From assembly GCA_020846855.1 (NCBI GenBank), contig JADLDD010000039.1, positions 34,725 to 98,724 of the forward strand: a DNA stretch of 64,000 bases. Direction: 5' to 3'. Source of the DNA: Acidimicrobiia bacterium. Lineage in GTDB: Bacteria; Actinomycetota; Acidimicrobiia; IMCC26256; JADLDD01. Under the pieces are notes generated by a model, which was not told the DNA's origin, searched no databases, and saw nothing but the letters and a program-made list of their open reading frames with translations. Position numbers and translations under genes: made by a program. This document shows positions 48,731 through 59,602 of this stretch, in pieces (position 1 is the first letter of the stretch; each line of letters opens with the position of its first letter).

Positions 48731-49672
48731 GTGGCCGCCACCCCGGATCTCCTCGCGCGGCGCCTCGTCTTCGTCACCGGCAAGGGCGGAGTGGGCAAGA
48801 GCACCGTCGCCGCCGCGCTCGGCCTGCTCGCGGCCGAGCACGGCAAGCGGGTCCTGCTGGTCGAGGCCGACTCCAAGGGCAACCTCACCGACTTCTTCGA
48901 GCACGGCCGGGTCGGGTTCAAACCGGTCGAGGTGAGCCCGTCGGTGTTCGTCCTGACGATGGACACCGAGGCCAGCCTGCGCGAGTACCTCAAGCTGCAC
49001 GTCAAGGTCCCGGTGATCGGCCGGCTCGGCCCGCTGGCCCGCGTGTTCGACTTCGTGGCCACCGCCGCGCCGGGCGTGAAGGAGATCCTGACCATCGGCA
49101 AGGTGGCGTGGGAGGTGCGCGAGTCGATCGAGGGCCGCGCCGGCTGGGACGTGGTGATCGTCGACGCCGCCGCCACCGGCCACGTGGTCGCCCAGCTCGG
49201 CGCGGCCGACTCCATCGGCGAGCTGGTGTCGATGGGTCCGGTGCAGTCGCAGACGGCCTGGATGAGCGAGCTGCTCGCCGATCCGGGGATCACGTCGCTG
49301 AACATCGTGGCCACGCCGGAGGAGATGCCCGTCAACGAGACGATCGAGCTCGTGGAGCGGGCCCGCCGGGAGCTGAAGGTCCCGTTGGGGTCGATCATCG
49401 TGAACCGGGTGCTGCCCGAGCTGTTCACCCGCGCCGACGAGGAGGCGTTCGATGCCCTGCCGCCCGACCTCGCCGGCGACGGCACCACCGCGGTGCTCGA
49501 CGCCGCGCGCCTGGCGGTGTCGCTGAGGCGGGCCCGGGCCGGGCACCTGTCGCGCCTGCGGGCCGAGACCGACCTGCCGCTGCTGTACCTGCCCTACCTC
49601 TTCGTGCGCAGCCACGGGCTGCGGGTGACCCGGATCATGGCCGAGCGCCTGGGCGAGGAGCTGGGCCTGTGA
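48731..49672 (+). CDS. ArsA/GET3-like ATPase, BagA-type
   Basis: 313-residue P-loop ATPase, GTG start. Deviant Walker A FVTGKGGVGKSTVAAAL, switch I-like D-S-K-G-N-L-T-D-F-F, then VVIVDAAATGHVV and VPLGSIIVNRVLP. Forms a coupled pair with the next gene (GTGA overlap). In mycobacteria the equivalent pair (Rv3679/Rv3680, described as BagAB) is a heterodimer resembling bacterial GET3 and lies near a WhiB gene. By analogy cytoplasmic; true client unknown; arsenite transport should not be inferred. Confidence 0.85.
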   Translation: MAATPDLLARRLVFVTGKGGVGKSTVAAALGLLAAEHGKRVLLVEADSKGNLTDFFEHGRVGFKPVEVSPSVFVLTMDTEASLREYLKLHVKVPVIGRLGPLARVFDFVATAAPGVKEILTIGKVAWEVRESIEGRAGWDVVIVDAAATGHVVAQLGAADSIGELVSMGPVQSQTAWMSELLADPGITSLNIVATPEEMPVNETIELVERARRELKVPLGSIIVNRVLPELFTRADEEAFDALPPDLAGDGTTAVLDAARLAVSLRRARAGHLSRLRAETDLPLLYLPYLFVRSHGLRVTRIMAERLGEELGL

Positions 49673-50880
49673 GCCGGCGCTCCCGGCGCGGACCGGTGCA
49701 GGGGCTCGAGCCGCTCCTCGCCGCCAAGGAGATCGTGATCTTCTGCGGCTCGGGAGGTGTCGGCAAGACCACCATGGCCGCCGCCGCGGGGTTGGGCGCC
49801 GTGAGCCGGCTGGGCGGCAAGGTGCTGGTGCTGACCATCGATCCCGCCCGCCGCCTGGCCAGCGCGCTCGGCCTGGAGGGCTTCGGCAACGTGGAGAAGC
49901 GGGTCCCGGCCGAGGCCCTCGCCGCCGCGGGCATCGAGACCCAGGGCGAGATGTGGGCCGCGATGCTCGACACCAAGCAGTCGTGGGACGAGCTGGTCAT
50001 GCGCCACGCCCCCGACGAGGAGACGGCCTACCGCATCCTCGAGAACCGGCTGTACCACAACCTCACGGCCCGCTTCGTGCAGAGCCACGACTACATAGCC
50101 ATGGAACGGCTCTACGAGATCCACGCCAGCGGCCGCTACGACCTGATCGTCATCGACACACCGCCTACCCGCAACGCCCTCGACTTCCTGGAGGCGCCGG
50201 CCCGCATGGCCGACTTCTTCGGCGGGCGGCTGCTGCGGTGGCTCACCATGCCGTACCGGGTGGGGGGCAAGCGCGGCGCGCGGGTCATCAACGTGGCCAG
50301 CAAGCCCTTCTACCAGCTCGCCGACCGGGCCCTCGGCAGCCAGTTCCTCCAGGACATCGCCGAGTTCTTCCTCAACTTCCAGTCGATGTACGACGGCTTC
50401 GTGGAGCGGGCCAACGCGGTTGAGGCGCTGCTCCGCGACAAGCGCACCACCTTCGCGGTGGTCACCACGCTCGAGTCGGCGCCGCTGCACGAGGCCGAGT
50501 TCTTCTGCGAGGCGCTGGCCGAGCGGAAGCTCCACCTCGGCGCACTGGTGCTCAACAAGACCTTGCCGCCCTACCTGCTCTCCCCGGCCGGGGCGCGGGC
50601 CGCCCGACGCATGGTGGCCGAGGCCGACGACCTCGGTCGGAGCCTCGCGGCGGGTGGGGGCGAGCCGGCCCTGGCGGACGCGGACCGCAACGCCCGCGTC
50701 CTGCGCACGATCGGCGAGTCGTTCGCCGACTTCGCGGTGGTGGCCAAGCGCGAGCAGGAGCTGCGGGCCGAGCTGAGCGAGGCGCCCGACGTCGTCGCCG
50801 ACGTCCCCAACCTCGACGCCGACGTCGCCGACGTCGCCGGCCTCGACCGGATCGCCGAGCACCTCTTCACCCCCCGCTGA
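49669..50880 (+). CDS. ArsA/GET3-like ATPase, BagB-type
   Basis: 403 residues, GTG 49669 overlapping the previous stop. P-loop FCGSGGVGKTTMAAAAG, then LTIDPARRLASALG (the switch region typical for BagB/ArsA-like), VIDTPPTRNALDFLEAPARM and a helical C-terminal domain (LQDIAEFFLNFQSMYDGFVERANAVEALL) followed by VVTTLESAPLHEAEFF. A tail of about 40 residues carries repeated D-V-A-D-V. It pairs with the upstream ATPase; see that entry for the mycobacterial comparison. Confidence 0.87.
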   Translation: MSRRSRRGPVQGLEPLLAAKEIVIFCGSGGVGKTTMAAAAGLGAVSRLGGKVLVLTIDPARRLASALGLEGFGNVEKRVPAEALAAAGIETQGEMWAAMLDTKQSWDELVMRHAPDEETAYRILENRLYHNLTARFVQSHDYIAMERLYEIHASGRYDLIVIDTPPTRNALDFLEAPARMADFFGGRLLRWLTMPYRVGGKRGARVINVASKPFYQLADRALGSQFLQDIAEFFLNFQSMYDGFVERANAVEALLRDKRTTFAVVTTLESAPLHEAEFFCEALAERKLHLGALVLNKTLPPYLLSPAGARAARRMVAEADDLGRSLAAGGGEPALADADRNARVLRTIGESFADFAVVAKREQELRAELSEAPDVVADVPNLDADVADVAGLDRIAEHLFTPR

Positions 50881-51016
50881 ACCTCCGCCGGCACCGGGAG
50901 GATGCCGGTACCGCCGTCCCGGAGCGGCCGGGAGGTGCGGCGCCGGCACCACCGACCTCCGCGCGGGCGGCCGCCCGTGACCGCCGGGCGGGGCGGCGGC
51001 CGGTACGATCGCCGCC

Positions 51017-52486
51017 GTGCGGACCCTCGGCGAGCTGGCCCTGCGGCACACCGACCTGAAGGTCGGCGACCTCGAACACCTCCAGAGCCTCGTGTCGTCG
51101 TGGCGCATCCTCGCCGACCTGTCGTTCTCCGACCTCCTCCTCATGGCCCCCCTGTCGGGCGACGACACGGAGCGCTTCGTGGTGCTGGCCCAGCTCCGGC
51201 CCACCACCGGCCAGACCCTCTACGCCACCGACCTGGTCGGCTCGGTGGTGGGGGAGGCCGAGCGCCCGCTCGTGGCCAAGGCCTGGCGCAGCGGCACCCT
51301 CGTCGTCGGCGACGCCCCGATCCTCGGGTCGGCCGAGAGGGTGCGGGTGCACTGCATCCCGGTGCGCCGGCGCGACCACGTCGTCGGGATCCTGGTGCGC
51401 GAGTCGACCACCCGTTCCACCCGCCGCCACGGAGACCTCGAGCGCATCTACCAGGAGACGTTCGATCACCTGGCTCGGATGGTCGCCGAGGGCACCTTCC
51501 CGTTCCCGTCCTACGACGTCGAGCCGCAGGAGTCGCCCCGGGTCGGCGACGGTGCCATCGTCCTCGACGCCACGGCCCGGATCCGCTTCGCCAGCCCCAA
51601 CGCCGTCAGCCACCTGCACCGGATCGGCATCCACGCCTACACCCCGGGCCTCCAGCTCGCCGAGGTCGGCTTCGCCGAGGAGGCCGTGATGACGGCGCTG
51701 AGCGTGAAGCTGCCCGTCACCGAGGAGATCGAGCGGGGTGAGACCTCGATCCTCCTCCGGGCCATCCCCCTCCTAGGGGGTGGGGAACCCACCGGTGCGC
51801 TCATCCTCCTGCGCGACGTCACCGACCTCCGCAGCCGCGACCGGATGCTCCTCTCCAAGGACGCCACCATCCGGGAGATCCACCACCGGGTGAAGAACAA
51901 CCTCCAGACCATCGCCGCGCTCCTGCGGCTCCAGCGCCGCCGCCTACGCTCCGACGAGTCGCGCCAGGCGCTCCTCGAGTCGGAGCGCCGTATCCGCTCG
52001 ATCGCCATCGTCCACGAGACGCTCGCCCGCGAGCCGGGCGGCGCGGTGCGCTTCGACGACATCGTCCGCCCGCTGCTGCGCGCGGTGGAGGAGGCCCTGA
52101 CCTCGCCCGACCGGCGGGTCCGCTTCGAGGTCAAGGGTACGGCGGGCGAGATCCCGGACGGCATCGCCACCCCTCTCGCGGTCGTCCTCAACGAGTTGGT
52201 GCAGAACGCCGTCGACCACGCGTTCCCCGAGCCGCGCGACCCGCTCGGGGGCCGGGTGGTGGTCGAGTTGAACCGGACCGACGGGACGCTCGCCCTCGAC
52301 GTCTCCGACGACGGCATCGGCCTGCCGGAGGGGTTCGTCCTCGAGGACGCCACCGGCCTGGGGCTGACCATCGTCCAGGCGCTCGTGACCGGTGAGCTGG
52401 GCGGCACCATCGAGATGTCGGGCGGCGACGGCACCCACGTCCACGTGGAGGTGCCGGTGGCCCTGCCCGAGCCGACCGCGCCCTGA
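51017..52486 (+). CDS. pdtaS: Sensor histidine kinase, PdtaS-like
   Basis: 489-residue soluble kinase. GAF-like N-terminal domain (about 1-150: LADLSFSDLLLMAPL, VRVHCIPVRRRDHVVGILVRES), PAS domain (about 175-285: ATARIRFASPNAVSHLHRIG), then HisKA_2 dimerisation helix REIHHRVKNNLQTIAALLRLQ with phospho-acceptor His at 289/290, and an HATPase (VLNELVQNAVDHAFPEP, DDGIGLPEGF, GLGLTIVQAL). This domain order is that of mycobacterial PdtaS, whose partner is an ANTAR RNA-binding regulator (PdtaR); no such partner is in this window. GTG start. Confidence 0.92.
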   Translation: MRTLGELALRHTDLKVGDLEHLQSLVSSWRILADLSFSDLLLMAPLSGDDTERFVVLAQLRPTTGQTLYATDLVGSVVGEAERPLVAKAWRSGTLVVGDAPILGSAERVRVHCIPVRRRDHVVGILVRESTTRSTRRHGDLERIYQETFDHLARMVAEGTFPFPSYDVEPQESPRVGDGAIVLDATARIRFASPNAVSHLHRIGIHAYTPGLQLAEVGFAEEAVMTALSVKLPVTEEIERGETSILLRAIPLLGGGEPTGALILLRDVTDLRSRDRMLLSKDATIREIHHRVKNNLQTIAALLRLQRRRLRSDESRQALLESERRIRSIAIVHETLAREPGGAVRFDDIVRPLLRAVEEALTSPDRRVRFEVKGTAGEIPDGIATPLAVVLNELVQNAVDHAFPEPRDPLGGRVVVELNRTDGTLALDVSDDGIGLPEGFVLEDATGLGLTIVQALVTGELGGTIEMSGGDGTHVHVEVPVALPEPTAP

Positions 52487-52511
52487 CCGGGCCGGTATCC
52501 TCGGCGCGCCT

Positions 52512-53531
52512 GTGGGGATACGAGAGGCCGACGGCCCACGCAACGGGCGCCCGGACCGCACCGGGGGCTCCCGGCGCTCCGGGCGGGGCGCCGCCCTCGC
52601 CGTCGCGGCGCTCGCCACCACGCTCCTGCTCGTAGCCGTCGGCGGGTACACCCGGGGCAGCGGCAGCGGGTACGGCTGCCGTGACCGCTGGCCGCTGTGC
52701 CACGACGGCGCCCTGGGCGGCCTCCTGCCCCGGGCCGACTTCCACATGATCGTGGAGTGGAGCCACCGCTGGCTCGCCGCGGTGGTGGGGGTGCTGGTGG
52801 TGGCCACCGCGGTCACGGCCTGGCGCCGCTACCGGGGCGTCGCCTGGGTGGTGGGGCCGGCGGTCACGGCCACCGTCCTGGTCTTCGTCCAGGCCTGGCT
52901 CGGCGCGCTGGTGGTGAAGAACGACCTGCACGCCGACCTCGTCTCGCTCCACCTCGCCAACGCCATGATCGTCACGGCGCTCCTCGCCGTGACCGCCGTC
53001 CGGATGCTCGCCGCCGACGGTCGCCTGCCGGTCGCCGCCGCCGACCGCGGCTGGACGGTCGCGCTGGCTTCGGCGGCGGTCCTGACCTTCGCGGTGCTGA
53101 TCCTGGGTTCGGTGGTGCACAACGAGTACGTGGGCGGCTGGCCGCTCGTCGGCGGCCGGCTGATCCCCGACCTCGACGGCAAGGTGGTGGCCGTGCACTT
53201 CGTGCATCGCTTCGCCGCGGGGGTCGGCCTGATCGCCGTCGGCTGGCTCGCCTACGGCGTGGTGCGCCGACGGCGACCCCGCGCCGAGGCCGCGATGGTC
53301 CACCTGGCCCTGGCGTGCTACGTCGCCAACGTCGTGTTCGGGGCCCTGCACGTGGTGACCGAGGTGCGCTCGAGCGCCATCGTCGTGGCCCACCTCGGCA
53401 TCGCCTCCACCGCCTGGACCGCTCTGGTCGCGGCGGCGCTGCTCTCCCTGAACGAGCGATCCCTGGCGGCGGAGGGGGCCGGGCCGCCCGGCGAGGCCGA
53501 GGGCCGGACCCGGGTGCCCCTTCCCACCTGA
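52512..53531 (+). CDS. ctaA: Heme A synthase, COX15/CtaA family
   Basis: 339-residue membrane protein that oxidises heme O to heme A for cytochrome oxidase. Eight spans. Conserved His: MIVEWSHRWLA, LHLANAMIVT, AVHFVHRFAAG and VVAHLGIAS, the two pseudo-symmetric His pairs. An early loop has G-C-R-D-R-W-P-L-C-H, the Cys pair of the actinobacterial/Bacillus type. GTG 52512 gives a basic N-terminal tail. Not obviously coupled to other oxidase genes here. Confidence 0.92.
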   Translation: MGIREADGPRNGRPDRTGGSRRSGRGAALAVAALATTLLLVAVGGYTRGSGSGYGCRDRWPLCHDGALGGLLPRADFHMIVEWSHRWLAAVVGVLVVATAVTAWRRYRGVAWVVGPAVTATVLVFVQAWLGALVVKNDLHADLVSLHLANAMIVTALLAVTAVRMLAADGRLPVAAADRGWTVALASAAVLTFAVLILGSVVHNEYVGGWPLVGGRLIPDLDGKVVAVHFVHRFAAGVGLIAVGWLAYGVVRRRRPRAEAAMVHLALACYVANVVFGALHVVTEVRSSAIVVAHLGIASTAWTALVAAALLSLNERSLAAEGAGPPGEAEGRTRVPLPT

Positions 53532-53604: not shown

Positions 53605-53787
53605 GTGTTCGCGCTCCAGATCAAGCTCGACCCTGAGAAGCTCAAGGAGCAGCAGGCCGCCGAGGAGGCCGCCAAGGCCGAGGCCGAGGCGGCCAAGGCA
53701 CAGGCCCAGGCCGGCGGGGCCGACGACACCGTCGACGACACCGGGGGCGGGTCCCCCGAGCCGGGCGGCGGCGACCCGGGCGAGTAG
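53605..53787 (+). CDS. Small charged alanine-rich protein
   Basis: 60 residues, GTG start with an AGGGGG ribosome site at 53595-53600. The N-terminal third is lysine-rich and helical (LDPEKLKEQQAAEEAAKAEAE, a short coiled coil), then a Gly/Asp/Glu-rich tail. No signal peptide. It lies 32 bp before the molybdenum subunit and may be the first gene of that operon, or be low-complexity coding noise. Function unknown. Confidence 0.5.
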   Translation: MFALQIKLDPEKLKEQQAAEEAAKAEAEAAKAQAQAGGADDTVDDTGGGSPEPGGGDPGE

Positions 53788-53819: not shown

Positions 53820-56678
53820 ATGGGAAGCACCGATCTCTCCGAGCGCCTCCGTCGCCTCGCGCCCACCGAGGCCGCGGCCCGGGTCGAGAGCCTCCTGTCG
53901 CGCACCTACGAGTACCGCGGCTGGGAAGACGTCTACCGCGACGAGTGGACCTGGGACGACGTCGTCAAGGTCACCCACACGCGGGTCAACTGCATCTCGG
54001 CCTGCTCGCTCGACGCCTACGTCAAGGACGGCATCGTCTGGCGGGAGGAGCAGAACGCCAACTACCCGCAGGCCTTCGACGACGTCCCCGACTTCAACCC
54101 CCGCGGCTGCCCGTCGGGATGCGCGTACAGCATCCAGATGTACGACCCGACCCGGGTCCGCTACCCGCTCAAGCGGGTGGGGGAGCGCGGTGAGGGTCGT
54201 TGGGAGCGCCTCTCCTGGGACCAGGCGCTCTCGGAGATCGCCGACCGGATCATCGACACCATCGTCGAGGACGGCGCGGAGTGCATCGTCTTCGACCACG
54301 GCACCACCAACATCGACAACGGGATCGGCACCCCGGTCGAGTCGCACCTCTTCGGAGGCGCGCTGGGCGGGAGCAGCCTCGACTCGTGGGCCGGTGTCGG
54401 CGATCTTCCCGTCGGCCTGATCCAGACGTGGGGCACCTACATGAGCGAGGGGACCTCCGACGACTGGTTCCTCTCCGACTACATCCTGATCTGGATCGGC
54501 AACCCCAACTACACGCACCCCTCCGACGCCCACTTCATGTGGGAGGCCCGCTATCGCGGCGCCAAGGTGGTGTCGATCGCGCCCGACTTCAACGCGTCGA
54601 CCGTCCACGCCGACCGGTGGCTCAACGTCCGGATGGGCACCGACGCCGCGCTGGCGCTGGGCCTCGCCCACGTGATCGTGGAGGAGGGCCTCCACGACGC
54701 GCCGTTCGTGAAGGAGCAGACCGACCTCCCGTTCCTGGTGCGCGACGACGACGACCGCTTCCTGCGCCAGAGCGACGTCGATCCCGACGGTCCCGACGGC
54801 AGCGGCGAGCGCTTCTACGTCTGGGACGCCGCGACCGGGACCCTGGCGCTAGCCCCCGGCACGTGGGGCGCGCCCCTGATGACCCTGGAGCTCGACGGCC
54901 TCGACCCCGCGCTGGAGGGCGCCCACGAGGTGACCCTCGCCGACGGCTCCACGGTGACGGTCCGGCCGGTGTTCGAGCGGTTGCGGACCCGCCTGGCCGA
55001 CTACCCGCCCGAGCGGGTGGCCGAGATCACCGGCGTCCACGCCGAGAACGTGCGTACCGTCGCCCGCGAGCTCGCGGCCGCGCGCTCGGCGATGATCTAC
55101 GCCTCCTGGGGGGCGTGCAAGCACTACCACTCCGACCTGTTCCAGCGGGGCATGGCCTACCTGGTGGCCCTGACCGGCAACACGGGCGGCAAGCCCGGGT
55201 CGGGGATCAAGGTCTCCACCTGGTGGCCGATGCCCGGCTTCGTGATCATGGGCGAGGGCGGTGAGCTGCGCACCACGCCGCCCGAGGAGCTGCCCGTCGA
55301 CCGCCTCCAGATGATGCAGGCCTCGAAGATGATGTTCGAGATGTCGCCGATGCTGCGCAGCACGCCGCTGATCCCGTGGCTCTACGCCCACGACCCGGAG
55401 TGGCGCGAGGCCGCCACCCGCTACGCGGATCCGGTGCTGCCCCGCCCGGTCGCCGACTACATGGACGAGGTGATCGAGAAGGGCTGGCAGCCCATCTGGC
55501 CCCGCCCCCCGAAGAAGCCCCGCTTCTTCTACTACTCGGGCCCGAACCCGCTGCGGCGCTGGCCCAACCCGAAGACCATCCGCGACAGCCTCTGGAAGAG
55601 CATCGAGACGATCGTCGCCTGCGACTTCCGCATGTCGACCTCGGCCATGTGGTCCGACTACGTCCTGCCCGCGTGCGGCTACTACGAGAAGCCGGGGATC
55701 AAGTACACCCAGTCGTACCTGCCCTACGTGGTCGTCGGGCAGCGGGCCGTCCCCGAGCTCTACGAGAGCCGCCACGAGTGGGACATCGTCCTCGGCCTGG
55801 CCCGCGCCATCCAGGAACGGGCGACGGCCCGCGGCGTCGACGTGTTCCACGACTCCAACGGCCTGCCCCACGACCTCTCCCGCCTCCACGACGACATCAC
55901 CGGCGGCGGGTACTACGACGAGGGGCCGGGCGGCGAGGTGCGCGCCCTCGACTACATCCTCGAGAACTCGCCCGTCACCAAGGCCACCGACCTCGGCGGC
56001 GATCCGTGGAAGACGGCCGCCACCGAGGGCATGGTGAAGATCGAGTCCATCGACCCGGTGCAGCTCGCGGTGGGCCTCAACTCGGTGATGAGCGACTTCG
56101 ACCCGAGCCGCCCGATCAACCAGTTCGCCTGGTTCGTCAAGGACAAGAACCCGTGGCCGACGCTCACCGGCCGCCAGCAGTTCTACATCGATCACCCGTG
56201 GTTCCTCGACGTGGGCGAGGAGCTGGTGTGCCACAAGGAGCCCCTCGCCGCCGGCGGCGACCACCCGCTGCGCCTCACCGGTGGCCACACCCGCTGGAGC
56301 CAGCACGCCATCTTCCGGGCCAACGAGACGCTCCTGCGCCTCCAGCGGGGCGAGCCCGTCGCCTACGTCAGCGTGGTCGATGCCGCCGCCCGCGGCGTCG
56401 ACGACCACGATCGGATCCGGCTGTTCAACGACGTCGGCGAGTTCACGGTGCGGGCCAAGGTCTCACCGTCGGTCCAGCCGGGCGAGGTGATCTGCTACCA
56501 CGCGTGGGAGTCGTACCAGTTCCCGGGCGGTGCCACCCAGAACGACGTCGCCCCGAGCCCGCTCAAGCCCAACAACATGATCGGCGGCTACGGCCACCTC
56601 CAGTACCGGGTGGCGTACATGTCGATGAACCACATCCCCAAGGAGGTCGCGGTCGACTTCGAGAGGGCACCGGGATGA
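53820..56678 (+). CDS. Type II DMSO-reductase family molybdenum subunit (NarG/EbdA/SerA-like)
   Basis: 952-residue bis-MGD oxidoreductase. N-terminal [4Fe-4S] region: VTHTRVNCISACSLDAYVKDG and NPRGCPSGCAYS (Cys about 58, 62, 94, 98; the candidate His ligand is spaced H-x4-C rather than H-x3-C). Then LIWIGNPNYTHPSDAHFMWEARYRGAKVV, typical of type II alpha subunits, and CDFRMSTSAMWSDYVLPACGYYEKPG. C-terminal dinucleotide domain: LTGGHTRWSQHA and NDVAPSPLKPNNMIGGYGHLQYR. The operon gives it heme b, Fe-S and chaperone partners. No twin-Arg signal and no upstream in-frame start codon in the track, so it looks cytoplasmic. Substrate (nitrate, chlorate, selenate, DMS, hydrocarbon) undetermined. Confidence 0.9.
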   Translation: MGSTDLSERLRRLAPTEAAARVESLLSRTYEYRGWEDVYRDEWTWDDVVKVTHTRVNCISACSLDAYVKDGIVWREEQNANYPQAFDDVPDFNPRGCPSGCAYSIQMYDPTRVRYPLKRVGERGEGRWERLSWDQALSEIADRIIDTIVEDGAECIVFDHGTTNIDNGIGTPVESHLFGGALGGSSLDSWAGVGDLPVGLIQTWGTYMSEGTSDDWFLSDYILIWIGNPNYTHPSDAHFMWEARYRGAKVVSIAPDFNASTVHADRWLNVRMGTDAALALGLAHVIVEEGLHDAPFVKEQTDLPFLVRDDDDRFLRQSDVDPDGPDGSGERFYVWDAATGTLALAPGTWGAPLMTLELDGLDPALEGAHEVTLADGSTVTVRPVFERLRTRLADYPPERVAEITGVHAENVRTVARELAAARSAMIYASWGACKHYHSDLFQRGMAYLVALTGNTGGKPGSGIKVSTWWPMPGFVIMGEGGELRTTPPEELPVDRLQMMQASKMMFEMSPMLRSTPLIPWLYAHDPEWREAATRYADPVLPRPVADYMDEVIEKGWQPIWPRPPKKPRFFYYSGPNPLRRWPNPKTIRDSLWKSIETIVACDFRMSTSAMWSDYVLPACGYYEKPGIKYTQSYLPYVVVGQRAVPELYESRHEWDIVLGLARAIQERATARGVDVFHDSNGLPHDLSRLHDDITGGGYYDEGPGGEVRALDYILENSPVTKATDLGGDPWKTAATEGMVKIESIDPVQLAVGLNSVMSDFDPSRPINQFAWFVKDKNPWPTLTGRQQFYIDHPWFLDVGEELVCHKEPLAAGGDHPLRLTGGHTRWSQHAIFRANETLLRLQRGEPVAYVSVVDAAARGVDDHDRIRLFNDVGEFTVRAKVSPSVQPGEVICYHAWESYQFPGGATQNDVAPSPLKPNNMIGGYGHLQYRVAYMSMNHIPKEVAVDFERAPG

Positions 56679-57322
56679 GCCCTCCGGGCATCACGGCGCT
56701 CCTCGAGTCCGGGTCGCACGAGTGGGGCGGCGCAGCCCCCCGCGCCGTCGCACTCGTGCCCACCCCCGTCGAGAGCCAGCCCTCGGTCTACGTGCGGGTG
56801 GCGTGGGCGGGCCGTACCCGCGGCGACGTGGGCGAGGTGACGGTCCGGGCCGGCGCCCGGGCCGGCGGCGTGGTGGTGCGCCTCGACTGGGAGGTCCCGC
56901 TCCCGGCCCGGCGCATCGACGACTGGAACGCCTACGCCGACGCCTGCGCGGTGCTCTTCCCCGAGGGAGACGCCGCCGTCACCCCCATCGACACCATGGG
57001 ATCCCCGGAGCACCCGGTGCACGGGTGGTACTGGCGGGCCGGGACCGACGACGCCTTCTCCCTCACCGCCCACGGCCTCGGCACGGTCGAGCGGGCCGCC
57101 GACCACCCGGTCCGGGTCGCGGCCCGGTGGAGCGGCGGGCGCTGGACCGTCGTCTTCGCGGCCCCGGGCGTCCCGCCCGTCGGGGAGGGCCCGGGTGCCG
57201 GCGTGGCGGTGCCCGCCGGCTTCGCGGTGTGGTCCGGGGTGGCCGAGGAGCGGGCCGGCCTCAAGTCGTACTCACCGGAGTGGCAGTCGTTGGCCTTCGG
57301 CGCGCTGGAGGACGGAGCATGA
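56675..57322 (+). CDS. Heme b-binding gamma subunit (EbdC/SerC/DdhC-like)
   Basis: 215 residues, ATG 56675 inside the alpha stop (ATGA). An all-beta domain of the ethylbenzene-dehydrogenase/DdhC type: VYVRVAWAGRTRGD, VVRLDWEVPLPARRIDDWNAYADACAVLFP, HPVHGWYWRAG, AARWSGGRWTVVFAAPG. Candidate axial heme ligands are Met108 (T-M-G-S-P) and Lys197 (G-L-K-S-Y-S-P-E-W), matching the Met/Lys pair known in EbdC. Normal members carry a Sec signal; this one begins MSPPGITALLESG and has none. It passes electrons between the Fe-S subunit and an outside partner. Confidence 0.82.
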   Translation: MSPPGITALLESGSHEWGGAAPRAVALVPTPVESQPSVYVRVAWAGRTRGDVGEVTVRAGARAGGVVVRLDWEVPLPARRIDDWNAYADACAVLFPEGDAAVTPIDTMGSPEHPVHGWYWRAGTDDAFSLTAHGLGTVERAADHPVRVAARWSGGRWTVVFAAPGVPPVGEGPGAGVAVPAGFAVWSGVAEERAGLKSYSPEWQSLAFGALEDGA

Positions 57323-58353
57323 CGGCCACCGACGCCCGGCCCCAACACCAGTTCGCGATGGTCATCGACCTCAACAAGTGCCTGGGCTGCCAGGTGTGCA
57401 CGGTGTCGTGCAAGACCCAGTGGACCCGCGGTCCCGGGATGGAGGCGATGTGGTGGAACATCGTCAGCACCATCCCCGGCCGGGGCACCCCGCGCGACGC
57501 CTTCGACCTCGGCGGCGGCTACCGCGACGGCGTGCCCGTGCCCGGCGAGCTCCCCCCGAAGGGACAGTGGGGCGAGGCCTGGAACTTCGACTACGAGGCG
57601 GCCCTGTCGGGGCGGGGCCACCTCGAGCCGCTCACCGCCGACGGCTCGCCGCCCGAGTGGGGTCCCAACTGGGACGAAGACGTCGGCGGTGGCGTGTACC
57701 CCCACTCGTACTTCTTCTACCTGCCCCTCCTGTGCATGAACTGCTCCAACCCGGTGTGCCTGGAGGCCTGCCCCCGCGACGCGATCTACCGGCGCCCCGA
57801 GGACGGCGTGATCCTGATCGACGAGGAGCACTGCCACGGGTACCGGTTCTGCGCCGAGGCGTGCCCGTACAAGCGCATCTACTTCAACGAGCAACGGGTG
57901 ATCGCCCAGAAGTGCATCTCGTGCTACCCGCGGTTGGAGGAAGGCGTGGCGCCGGCCTGCGTCCGCCAGTGCCCGGGACGCATCCGGCACGTGGGCTGGA
58001 TCGACGATCCCGAGAGCCTGGTGCACAAGCTGGTCCACGTGTGGAAGGTCGCCCTACCGCTGCGCCCCGACTTCGAGGTCGAACCCAACCTCTTCTACGT
58101 CCCGCCGACGCTACCCACCGCGTTCGACGACGACGGTCGCTTCGACGAGAGCCGGTCCCGTGCGCCGGAGGAGCTGCGCCGGCTCTTCGGCCCCGGCGTC
58201 GACGACGCGCTGGCCACCATCGAAGCGGAGCGCGAGAAGGTCCGCGCCGGCGGTACCTCCGAGATCCTCGACGCCCTCATCTCACGGGACTGGAACGACC
58301 TGCTCGGCCCCTTCACCGTCGACCCCGGTCGTCTCGAGCGCCCGCCCCGCTGA
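57319..58353 (+). CDS. Four-cluster Fe-S beta subunit (NarH/EbdB/SerB-like)
   Basis: 344 residues, ATG 57319 overlapping the gamma stop. Cys groups: NKCLGCQVCTVSCKTQW, LLCMNCSNPVCLEACPRD, EEHCHGYRFCAEACPYKRIYF, and QKCISCYPRLEEGVAPACVRQCPGR, four Fe-S clusters in the type II pattern. The block RGPGMEAMWWNIVSTIPGRGTPRD is diagnostic for the NarH/ClrB/SerB/DdhB/EbdB group. Transfers electrons between the Mo subunit and the heme subunit. No signal of its own, as in all such beta subunits. Confidence 0.93.
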   Translation: MTATDARPQHQFAMVIDLNKCLGCQVCTVSCKTQWTRGPGMEAMWWNIVSTIPGRGTPRDAFDLGGGYRDGVPVPGELPPKGQWGEAWNFDYEAALSGRGHLEPLTADGSPPEWGPNWDEDVGGGVYPHSYFFYLPLLCMNCSNPVCLEACPRDAIYRRPEDGVILIDEEHCHGYRFCAEACPYKRIYFNEQRVIAQKCISCYPRLEEGVAPACVRQCPGRIRHVGWIDDPESLVHKLVHVWKVALPLRPDFEVEPNLFYVPPTLPTAFDDDGRFDESRSRAPEELRRLFGPGVDDALATIEAEREKVRAGGTSEILDALISRDWNDLLGPFTVDPGRLERPPR

Positions 58354-58358
58354 GGCCC

Positions 58359-59048
58359 GTGGCGACGGCCGGTCCCGCACCCACCCGGTCGGCCCCCGCC
58401 GCCGCGCACACCGCCGCGGCCCCGGCCCGGGCCGAGCTCTGGTGGGTGCTGGCCGACGTGCTCTCCTACCCGAGCTCCGAGCTCGCCGAGGGGTTGCGGT
58501 CCGGCGCGGTGGCCGAGCGGATCACCACCGCGGCGGCGGGCCTGCCCTACAGCCTGCCGATCGGACCCGGCCTCGCGGCCGGCGGAGCCGGCGACACCGG
58601 CGCATCCCCGGAGCCCGGGTCGCCGGAGCACGCGGCGCTGGGGACGGAGTACCTGCGGCTCTTCGAGGTCCCGGGGCCGTCGGGGCGCCCGTGCCCGCTG
58701 CGCGTCGGGTCCTACGGCGGCGACCCTCGTTCGGTGATGGAGGAGCTGCTGCGCGTGTACCGCCACTTCGGCCTCACCACGGCGGGCGCGGCCGTGGGCG
58801 ACCTCCCCGACGGCGTGGCGACGGTGGCGGAGTTCCTCGCGTTCCTGGCCACGCTGGAGGCCACCGCCCCCGGTGGGCGCGCCGGCGTGCGGGCGGCCCA
58901 GCGCGACCTCCTGGCGCGCCACCTGGTGCCGGCCGCGACCGCGATCGCGGGTCGGATCGGGCGCCTCCGTCCGTCGCCCGTCTACCGGGATGCGACCGCG
59001 CTGCTCGCCACCTACGCCGGTGCCGAGGCCGTGGCGCTGGGGGACTGA
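58359..59048 (+). CDS. TorD/NarJ-like maturation chaperone (delta)
   Basis: 229 residues, GTG 58359, 5 bp after the beta stop. Ala-rich N-terminus, then an all-helical TorD-type domain: LWWVLADVLSYPSSELAEGL, GTEYLRLFEVPGPSGRPCPLRVGSYGG (the E-Y-x-R-L-F and P-C-P-L-R-x-G-x-Y patterns of SerD/EbdD/DdhD-type chaperones), FGLTTAGAAVGDLPD, HLVPAATAIAGRI. Inserts the Mo cofactor into the alpha subunit. Last gene of the operon; a hairpin follows at 59115-59133. Confidence 0.87.
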   Translation: MATAGPAPTRSAPAAAHTAAAPARAELWWVLADVLSYPSSELAEGLRSGAVAERITTAAAGLPYSLPIGPGLAAGGAGDTGASPEPGSPEHAALGTEYLRLFEVPGPSGRPCPLRVGSYGGDPRSVMEELLRVYRHFGLTTAGAAVGDLPDGVATVAEFLAFLATLEATAPGGRAGVRAAQRDLLARHLVPAATAIAGRIGRLRPSPVYRDATALLATYAGAEAVALGD

Positions 59049-59151: not shown

Positions 59152-59442
59152 TCAGGACGCGGCCCGTTCCTTGTCGGCCCAGTCCTTGCGCAGGACCCGC
59201 CGCTCCTCCTCGGTGGTGCCGCCCCAGATGCCGGCCTCCTGGTTGGTGGCCAGGGCGAACTCGAGGCACTCGGCCGACACCTCGCACACCGCGCAGATCT
59301 CCTTGGCGGCCTCGATCTGGTCGACGGCCAGCCCGGTGGCGCCGATCGGGAAGAACAGATCGGGGTTGGAGTCCCGGCACAACGAGCGCGACCGCCAGGC
59401 CTGCGCGTCCCAGTCGTGTGTACGTACCCAGGTCAGCGTCAC
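59152..59442 (-). CDS. WhiB family Fe-S transcriptional regulator
   Basis: 96 residues from GTG 59442, which has GGAGG four bases upstream; the track's longer N-terminus is rejected. Four cluster Cys: S-L-C-R-D, C-A-V-C-E-V-S-A-E-C, then the turn G-I-W-G-G-T-T-E-E-E-R and a basic tail (RRVLRKDWADKERAAS). Features are closest to WhiB1/WhiB2-type proteins (DLFFPIGATG). It binds a [4Fe-4S] cluster, partners with the primary sigma factor and responds to NO or O2. In mycobacteria whiB genes also neighbour PdtaS or BagAB homologues. Confidence 0.95.
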   Translation of the reverse strand: MTLTWVRTHDWDAQAWRSRSLCRDSNPDLFFPIGATGLAVDQIEAAKEICAVCEVSAECLEFALATNQEAGIWGGTTEEERRVLRKDWADKERAAS

Positions 59443-59602
59443 GGGGCCTCCGATATCGTGCGGGCGAACGCGCCGGGTCGGCGAGTGCTTGTGAGCACGT
59501 TCACGAGCGTCTCCGGGGGTCACCCTCGGAGCAGGGCCTCACGATACGGGCCGGTGGAACACGTTTCAAGGGGGTTGTCCTGGTGAGTGCTTCGCGAAGG
59601 GC

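Follow-up and report, generated by a model that had tools for sequence, protein, structure and literature searches.

Can a type II dimethyl sulfoxide (DMSO) reductase complex work inside the cell when the enzymes that it most resembles are exported, and what would it do there? This question is raised by an operon in a 64,000-nucleotide stretch of DNA (hereafter the window) from contig JADLDD010000039.1 (C39) of an Acidimicrobiia bacterium, whose genome assembly (GCA_020846855.1; 2.35 Mb) is an incomplete metagenome-assembled genome (MAG), 83% complete. A preliminary description had reported alpha, gamma, beta and TorD-like chaperone genes, all of which we found where it had placed them (Table 1). 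EbdA, S25dA, CmdA, SerA and ClrA are listed as periplasmic (PMC10100899), and open-licence PMC papers yielded no account of an enzyme of the type of steroid C25 dehydrogenase (S25DH) or ethylbenzene dehydrogenase (EbDH) that lacks an export signal; one paper reports CmdA/AhyA-like alphas from a Dehalococcoidia MAG, with no comment on export in the part of it covered here (PMC6472368). Our analysis indicates that the operon probably encodes a cytoplasmic alpha-beta-gamma hydroxylase belonging to the S25DH/EbDH group of the type II DMSO reductase family. Its bacterial relatives insert oxygen from water into steroids and hydrocarbons on the outer side of the cell membrane.

Motif and hydropathy scanning of the first 45 residues of alpha revealed neither an RR-x-F/L motif nor a hydrophobic core. 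The maximum 13-residue mean hydropathy of the N-terminus was 0.34 for the window alpha and -0.15 to 0.87 across 14 alphas of its clade (clade A), compared with 0.91 to 2.21 after the RR motif in relatives bearing a twin-arginine translocation (Tat) signal. The upstream frame continued for 60 further codons without an ATG, GTG or TTG, in agreement with the preliminary description, which had seen no earlier in-frame start; a signal hidden in that frame was thus ruled out. About 20 close relatives (65-74% identity) came from Actinomycetota, Chloroflexota, Acidobacteriota and Gammaproteobacteria, the nearest named alpha being that of an Acidimicrobiaceae MAG (L016; 74%). These relatives keep the gene order alpha-gamma-beta-chaperone and the alpha start, and signals were present in none. 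At three of the loci (L018, L020 and L029), a stop codon lies 2 to 8 codons before the alpha start, which excludes a hidden N-terminal extension for the lineage and rules out a sequencing or start-site error. The two ways in which the preliminary description had allowed a signal to escape notice, extended homologues and a sequencing error, therefore both fell away, and the homologue alignment that it had proposed showed the missing signals to be common to close relatives across phyla.

No subunit of the window complex carries a Tat or Sec signal, and the N-termini of gamma and beta in the close relatives also lacked signals. A Sec signal had been attributed to the gamma subunit of Ebd; residue 7 of EbdC (2ivf_C, 214 amino acids) aligns with residue 3 of the window gamma, which leaves no room for such a signal on EbdC. 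A signal-less gamma is thus ordinary for EbDH-type enzymes, and what stands out is the missing signal on alpha alone. Its absence cannot be put down to a missing Tat system, since the source genome encodes TatC on contig C77 and a Tat-bearing NarG-like alpha on contig C87. The C87 locus (L011:2191-9310) encodes an exported NarG/Nxr-like complex comprising an alpha with the Tat signal SRRNFLQYSGAG, a beta and a chaperone, and it has its own EB_dh gamma with a signal-like N-terminus. Judged from N-termini that lack signals in all close homologues across phyla, the window complex is probably cytoplasmic, as had been proposed. The alphas do carry a short conserved N-terminal segment, which might be a remnant chaperone-binding site.

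We placed the window alpha in a tree of 57 alphas. It fell into a 13-member clade A (support 100) inside a 20-member signal-less clade (98), which in turn joined Tat-bearing alphas from Myxococcota, Pseudomonadota and Sterolibacterium in a group of 33 members (support 99). The signal-less clade branched beside, not within, the Tat-bearing S25DH-like clade, in a tree that does not include S25dA itself, which was absent from the data set. The alphas on contigs C18, C23 and C28 of the source genome belonged to a second signal-less clade (99), next to EbdA. Once the Tat labels of three rows (L011, L056 and L034_p11357) had been set by eye, the label changed exactly twice on the tree. An approximately unbiased (AU) test rejected a single signal-less clade with a p-AU of 5.6e-47, a value that is indicative because labels had been corrected by eye and the group had been named after the first tree. 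Tat signals thus appear to have been lost twice, separately, from Tat-bearing ancestors. Carriers belonging to diderm phyla also have signal-less paralogues, so that the loss is not a matter of monoderm cell architecture. The Chloroflexi genome RBG_16_68_14 (L139) has one Tat-bearing alpha, and its other clearly read alphas have no signal.

The window alpha has the Asp molybdenum ligand typical of type II DMSO reductases (Asp195, at the position of EbdA 223), as do all groups compared, and, close to the N-terminus, keeps the one His and three Cys of FS0 (His53, Cys58, Cys62 and Cys97). Its Lys434 corresponds to EbdA Lys450, and this position is Lys in 18/18 clade A alphas. EbdA His192 is replaced by Asn in all 18 clade A alphas, in all eight of clade C (8/8) and in 26 of 27 Tat-bearing S25DH-like rows. 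A review reports the same for S25DH, with the Lys (EbdA 450) kept and the His (192) absent (PMC6153880). The motifs GTTN and SWGACKHYHSDL are common to the window alpha and S25DH-like rows, and the stretch ASWGACKHYHSDLF is identical in the window alpha and a Sterolibacterium row (L070). The molybdenum ligand, the Lys and the Fe-S residues are kept in 14 clade A alphas and in four more distant relatives. Together with the tree, the active-site residues point to hydroxylation of a substrate C-H bond with water, rather than reduction, as the most likely chemistry. Tree and residues put alpha with S25DH-type O2-independent hydroxylases, and not with the respiratory or detoxifying reductases that the preliminary description had envisaged.

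A Met/Lys heme subunit had also been predicted. The heme ligands of EbdC, which we take to be Met101 and Lys114 (13 residues apart, like the Met and Lys in the alignment), align with Met108 and Arg121 of the window gamma. Among 22 aligned gammas (the window and 21 relatives), the Met is invariant, and the Lys position is occupied by Arg in 21 and by Gln in L016; the Met half of the prediction therefore stands, and the Met/Lys axial pair of EbDH is absent. Ligation of the EbdC heme by methionine and lysine is reported to be conserved in dimethylsulfide dehydrogenase (PMC8840923). Because the gammas of Tat-bearing S25DH-like enzymes also have Arg and purified S26DH contains heme b (PMC7411048), the window gamma may well retain its heme. 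The lone Sterolibacterium gamma that we found (L159) has Lys; it lies beside a divergent beta and is not proven to belong to S25DH.

The source genome encodes four signal-less alphas, that of the window and three others, against one EbDH-type beta-gamma pair, and paralogue alphas mostly have no adjoining beta or gamma genes. S. denitrificans likewise has fewer beta-gammas than alphas, and sharing of the former has been proposed (PMC6016249). By analogy, we infer that one beta-gamma pair is shared by several alphas in the source genome; sharing would require every alpha to be on one side of the membrane, in keeping with their joint lack of signals. In the proposed mechanism, a C-H bond of an intracellular hydrophobic substrate would be hydroxylated with water, without O2, and the five Fe-S clusters of alpha and beta would carry electrons from molybdenum to gamma, a heme-b-type subunit. 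Electrons from S25DH/EbDH are thought to reach cytochrome c (PMC6153880); here the final acceptor would be other than periplasmic cytochrome c, and the chaperone would be used for molybdenum cofactor (Moco) insertion only. A steroid, an isoprenoid or another coenzyme A (CoA)-linked lipid would be our guess at the substrate class. Our confidence is evenly balanced for the wider scheme, in which the two S25DH/EbDH-type lineages, having lost Tat signals independently, would constitute a cytoplasmic multi-alpha system for O2-independent C-H hydroxylation, with one clade A beta-gamma-chaperone set serving several alphas, a dedicated small protein and that alternative acceptor.

Several points weigh against a cytoplasmic hydroxylase acting on such substrates. 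The localization is deduced from N-termini alone, the complex could conceivably leave the cytoplasm with a Tat-bearing partner whose gene lies elsewhere, and a steroid substrate is unproven. Degradation genes do not lie beside the window operon, the best match in the source genome to an IpdA-like CoA-transferase query reached 34%, and KshA_C (3-ketosteroid 9-hydroxylase), taken as a marker of aerobic steroid-ring breakdown, was found in 0/9 carrier genomes, a result that neither supports nor excludes steroid use. Moreover, a reductase, ClrA, shares the Lys at position 450, which alone is thus no proof of hydroxylation. ClrA has the same Asp as well, and PcrA is the top PDB sequence match of alpha, as might be expected if the complex were a cytoplasmic oxyanion or sulfoxide reductase that takes in electrons via gamma and passes them, within the cytoplasm, to chlorate, nitrate, selenate or a sulfoxide; cytoplasmic NarG provides a precedent for intracellular type II enzymes (PMC10609526). 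We nevertheless consider a reductase unlikely: in the tree, the S25DH/EbDH group takes in the window alpha but not PcrA, ClrA or the NarG-like rows, the GTTN and SWGACKHYHSDL motifs are those of S25DH-like rows, and neither a NarI-like nor a c-type cytochrome gene was recognized in the operon or among its conserved neighbours.

Somewhat less likely again is that the complex is an ordinary EbDH/S25DH-type periplasmic enzyme, exported via a Tat-bearing partner or another route. TatC is present, and the beta and gamma of exported relatives are signal-less and must travel with a Tat-bearing subunit, but those relatives carry the signal on alpha itself. The EbDH/S25DH-type alphas found in the source genome are all signal-less, as are nearly all those inspected in carrier genomes, L139 being the exception. 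Although the host is an incomplete MAG and the heme Lys has been lost, it is very improbable that the complex is degenerate or inactive, or a start-site or assembly artefact, given the retention of the molybdenum-ligand, Lys and Fe-S residues described above and the conservation of synteny and start in independent assemblies from several phyla.

Table 1. Operon genes of the window and further signal-less EbDH-like alphas of the source genome
Feature	Coordinates	Strand	Description
Alpha	53820..56678	+	952 aa; Mo-bisMGD catalytic subunit, S25DH/EbDH-like, without Tat signal; TIGR03479 925 bits
Gamma	56675..57322	+	215 aa; EB_dh-type putative heme b subunit, without signal; PF09459 42.5 bits, EbdC E=1.4e-19
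Beta	57319..58353	+	344 aa; iron-sulfur subunit, EbdB-like; TIGR03478 427 bits, 2ivf_B E=5.4e-115
TorD/NarJ-like chaperone	about 58359..59048	+	229 aa, GTG start chosen; TIGR03482 92 bits, PF02613 30.3 bits
Small conserved protein	53605..53787	+	60 aa, GTG start, N-terminus MFALQIKLDPEKLKEQQ...; probable first operon gene
Further alpha (C18)	L014:4905-7637		Signal-less, EbDH-like; no beta or gamma adjoining
Further alpha (C23)	L013:3344-6133		Signal-less, EbDH-like; no beta or gamma adjoining
Further alpha (C28)	L012:1-2779		Signal-less, EbDH-like; no beta or gamma adjoining

The genes had been described as overlapping like an operon, which holds for alpha/gamma and gamma/beta (4 nt each), whereas a 5-nt gap separates beta from the chaperone. 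The top NCBIfam matches of all four (Table 1; TIGR03477 at 95 bits for gamma) scored under their curated cut-offs (984.75 for alpha, 169.85 for gamma, 480.7 for beta and 152.3 for the chaperone), which marks the operon as divergent within the type II DMSO reductase group; the Pfam score of gamma was over its cut-off. PDB sequence relatives included EbdA for alpha, EbdB (2ivf_B) for beta, with aligned cysteine motifs, and EbdC for gamma. The predicted gamma structure (predicted local distance difference test [pLDDT] 88.8) had 2ivf_C as its closest PDB match, with a template modelling (TM) score of 0.76; the alpha prediction (pLDDT 61) was too poor for use. Tandem ArsA-like ATPases, a PdtaS-like histidine kinase and CtaA lie on one flank (48731-53531) and WhiB on the other (59152-59523), and these flanks raise the possibility that the operon was inserted among longer-established actinobacterial genes.

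At 18 clade A loci, including the window, the gene immediately before alpha encodes a small protein (43-60 amino acids) whose N-terminal motif, MFAxxI-x-(V/I/L)D-x-x-K(L/M), is conserved across phyla. We built a profile from ten of these sequences and found the others with it; the profile had no significant match elsewhere in the fetched DNA, L016 gave a weak match only, and the protein was not seen before the alpha of L019 or L030. Many copies are preceded by a ribosome-binding-site-like sequence. The window copy has a G+C content of 0.97 at third codon positions versus 0.48 at second positions, and neither Pfam nor NCBIfam assigned it to a family.

In Gammaproteobacteria, Acidobacteriota and some Acidimicrobiia, CbbQ/NorQ-like AAA+ and vWA genes lie divergently upstream of the operon and possibly encode a maturation pair; at L018:1579-5600 and similar loci, the vWA protein beside the AAA+ gene is about 1000 amino acids long. 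The AAA+ protein was rejected as a needed partner, no homologue having been found in the source genome as assembled. In Chloroflexota and L016, the operon lies near a CoA-transferase pair, a thiolase, an acyl-CoA dehydrogenase, nitroreductases, an AMP-ligase-like gene and CopD-like membrane proteins, which suggests CoA-linked degradation of some lipid. The CoA-transferase pair may resemble the steroid-ring genes IpdAB, a name that NCBIfam did not return. A cytochrome b role for the CopD-like neighbours was unsupported, with no invariant histidine in an alignment of the copies other than C23 copy a. The C23 alpha has MobB, CofD, a ferredoxin-like protein and CopD-like membrane proteins as neighbours. 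CofD (F420 biosynthesis) was seen near clade A or paralogue alphas at L016:11116-12225 (by eye) and L013:983-2017 (Pfam), and its adjacency in these two Acidimicrobiia loci offers a lead to the electron acceptor.

If true, the existence of a cytoplasmic branch across several phyla would bring intermediates within the cell, possibly CoA-linked ones, into reach of such enzymes and would call for a new electron acceptor; for uncultured Acidimicrobiia, Dehalococcoidia and Gammaproteobacteria with several alphas per genome, it would predict a means of attacking recalcitrant lipids without O2. As no export would be needed, such enzymes might also ease steroid or vitamin D hydroxylation in production hosts.

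Among known systems, ClrABDC and PcrABCD share with the window complex a type II alpha and beta, the Asp ligand and a chaperone, but they are Tat-exported and fall outside the S25DH/EbDH group, within which the signal-less window complex lies. The NarGHI-type cytoplasmic nitrate reductase (nNar) likewise combines a NarJ-like chaperone with a type II alpha that lacks a functional Tat signal, and a short conserved N-terminal segment, possibly a remnant chaperone-binding site, is common to both. NarG, however, is about 1247 amino acids long, is placed elsewhere in the tree and works with the membrane protein NarI, whereas the window operon contains no membrane di-heme NarI gene, its third subunit being a soluble EB_dh gamma. 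EbdABCD (PDB 2ivf) has the same subunit set, gamma fold, beta cysteine motifs and signal-less gamma; EbdA differs in having a Tat signal, His192 and Asp485, with Met/Lys heme ligands in its complex, where the window has no Tat signal, Asn, Pro and Met/Arg. S25DH/S26DH of Sterolibacterium denitrificans has Tat signals on its alphas, which are assigned to the periplasm (PMC7411048, PMC6016249), unlike the window alpha. The window operon also differs in its order, alpha-gamma-beta-chaperone, and in its small upstream protein, and identity to alphas of Sterolibacterium MAG rows is about 45%. Sterolibacterium-type alphas nevertheless belong to the nearest Tat-bearing clade, and the two systems share the Asp ligand, the Lys450 equivalent, the lack of His192, an alpha-beta-gamma complex with a dedicated chaperone, and more alphas than beta-gammas per genome.

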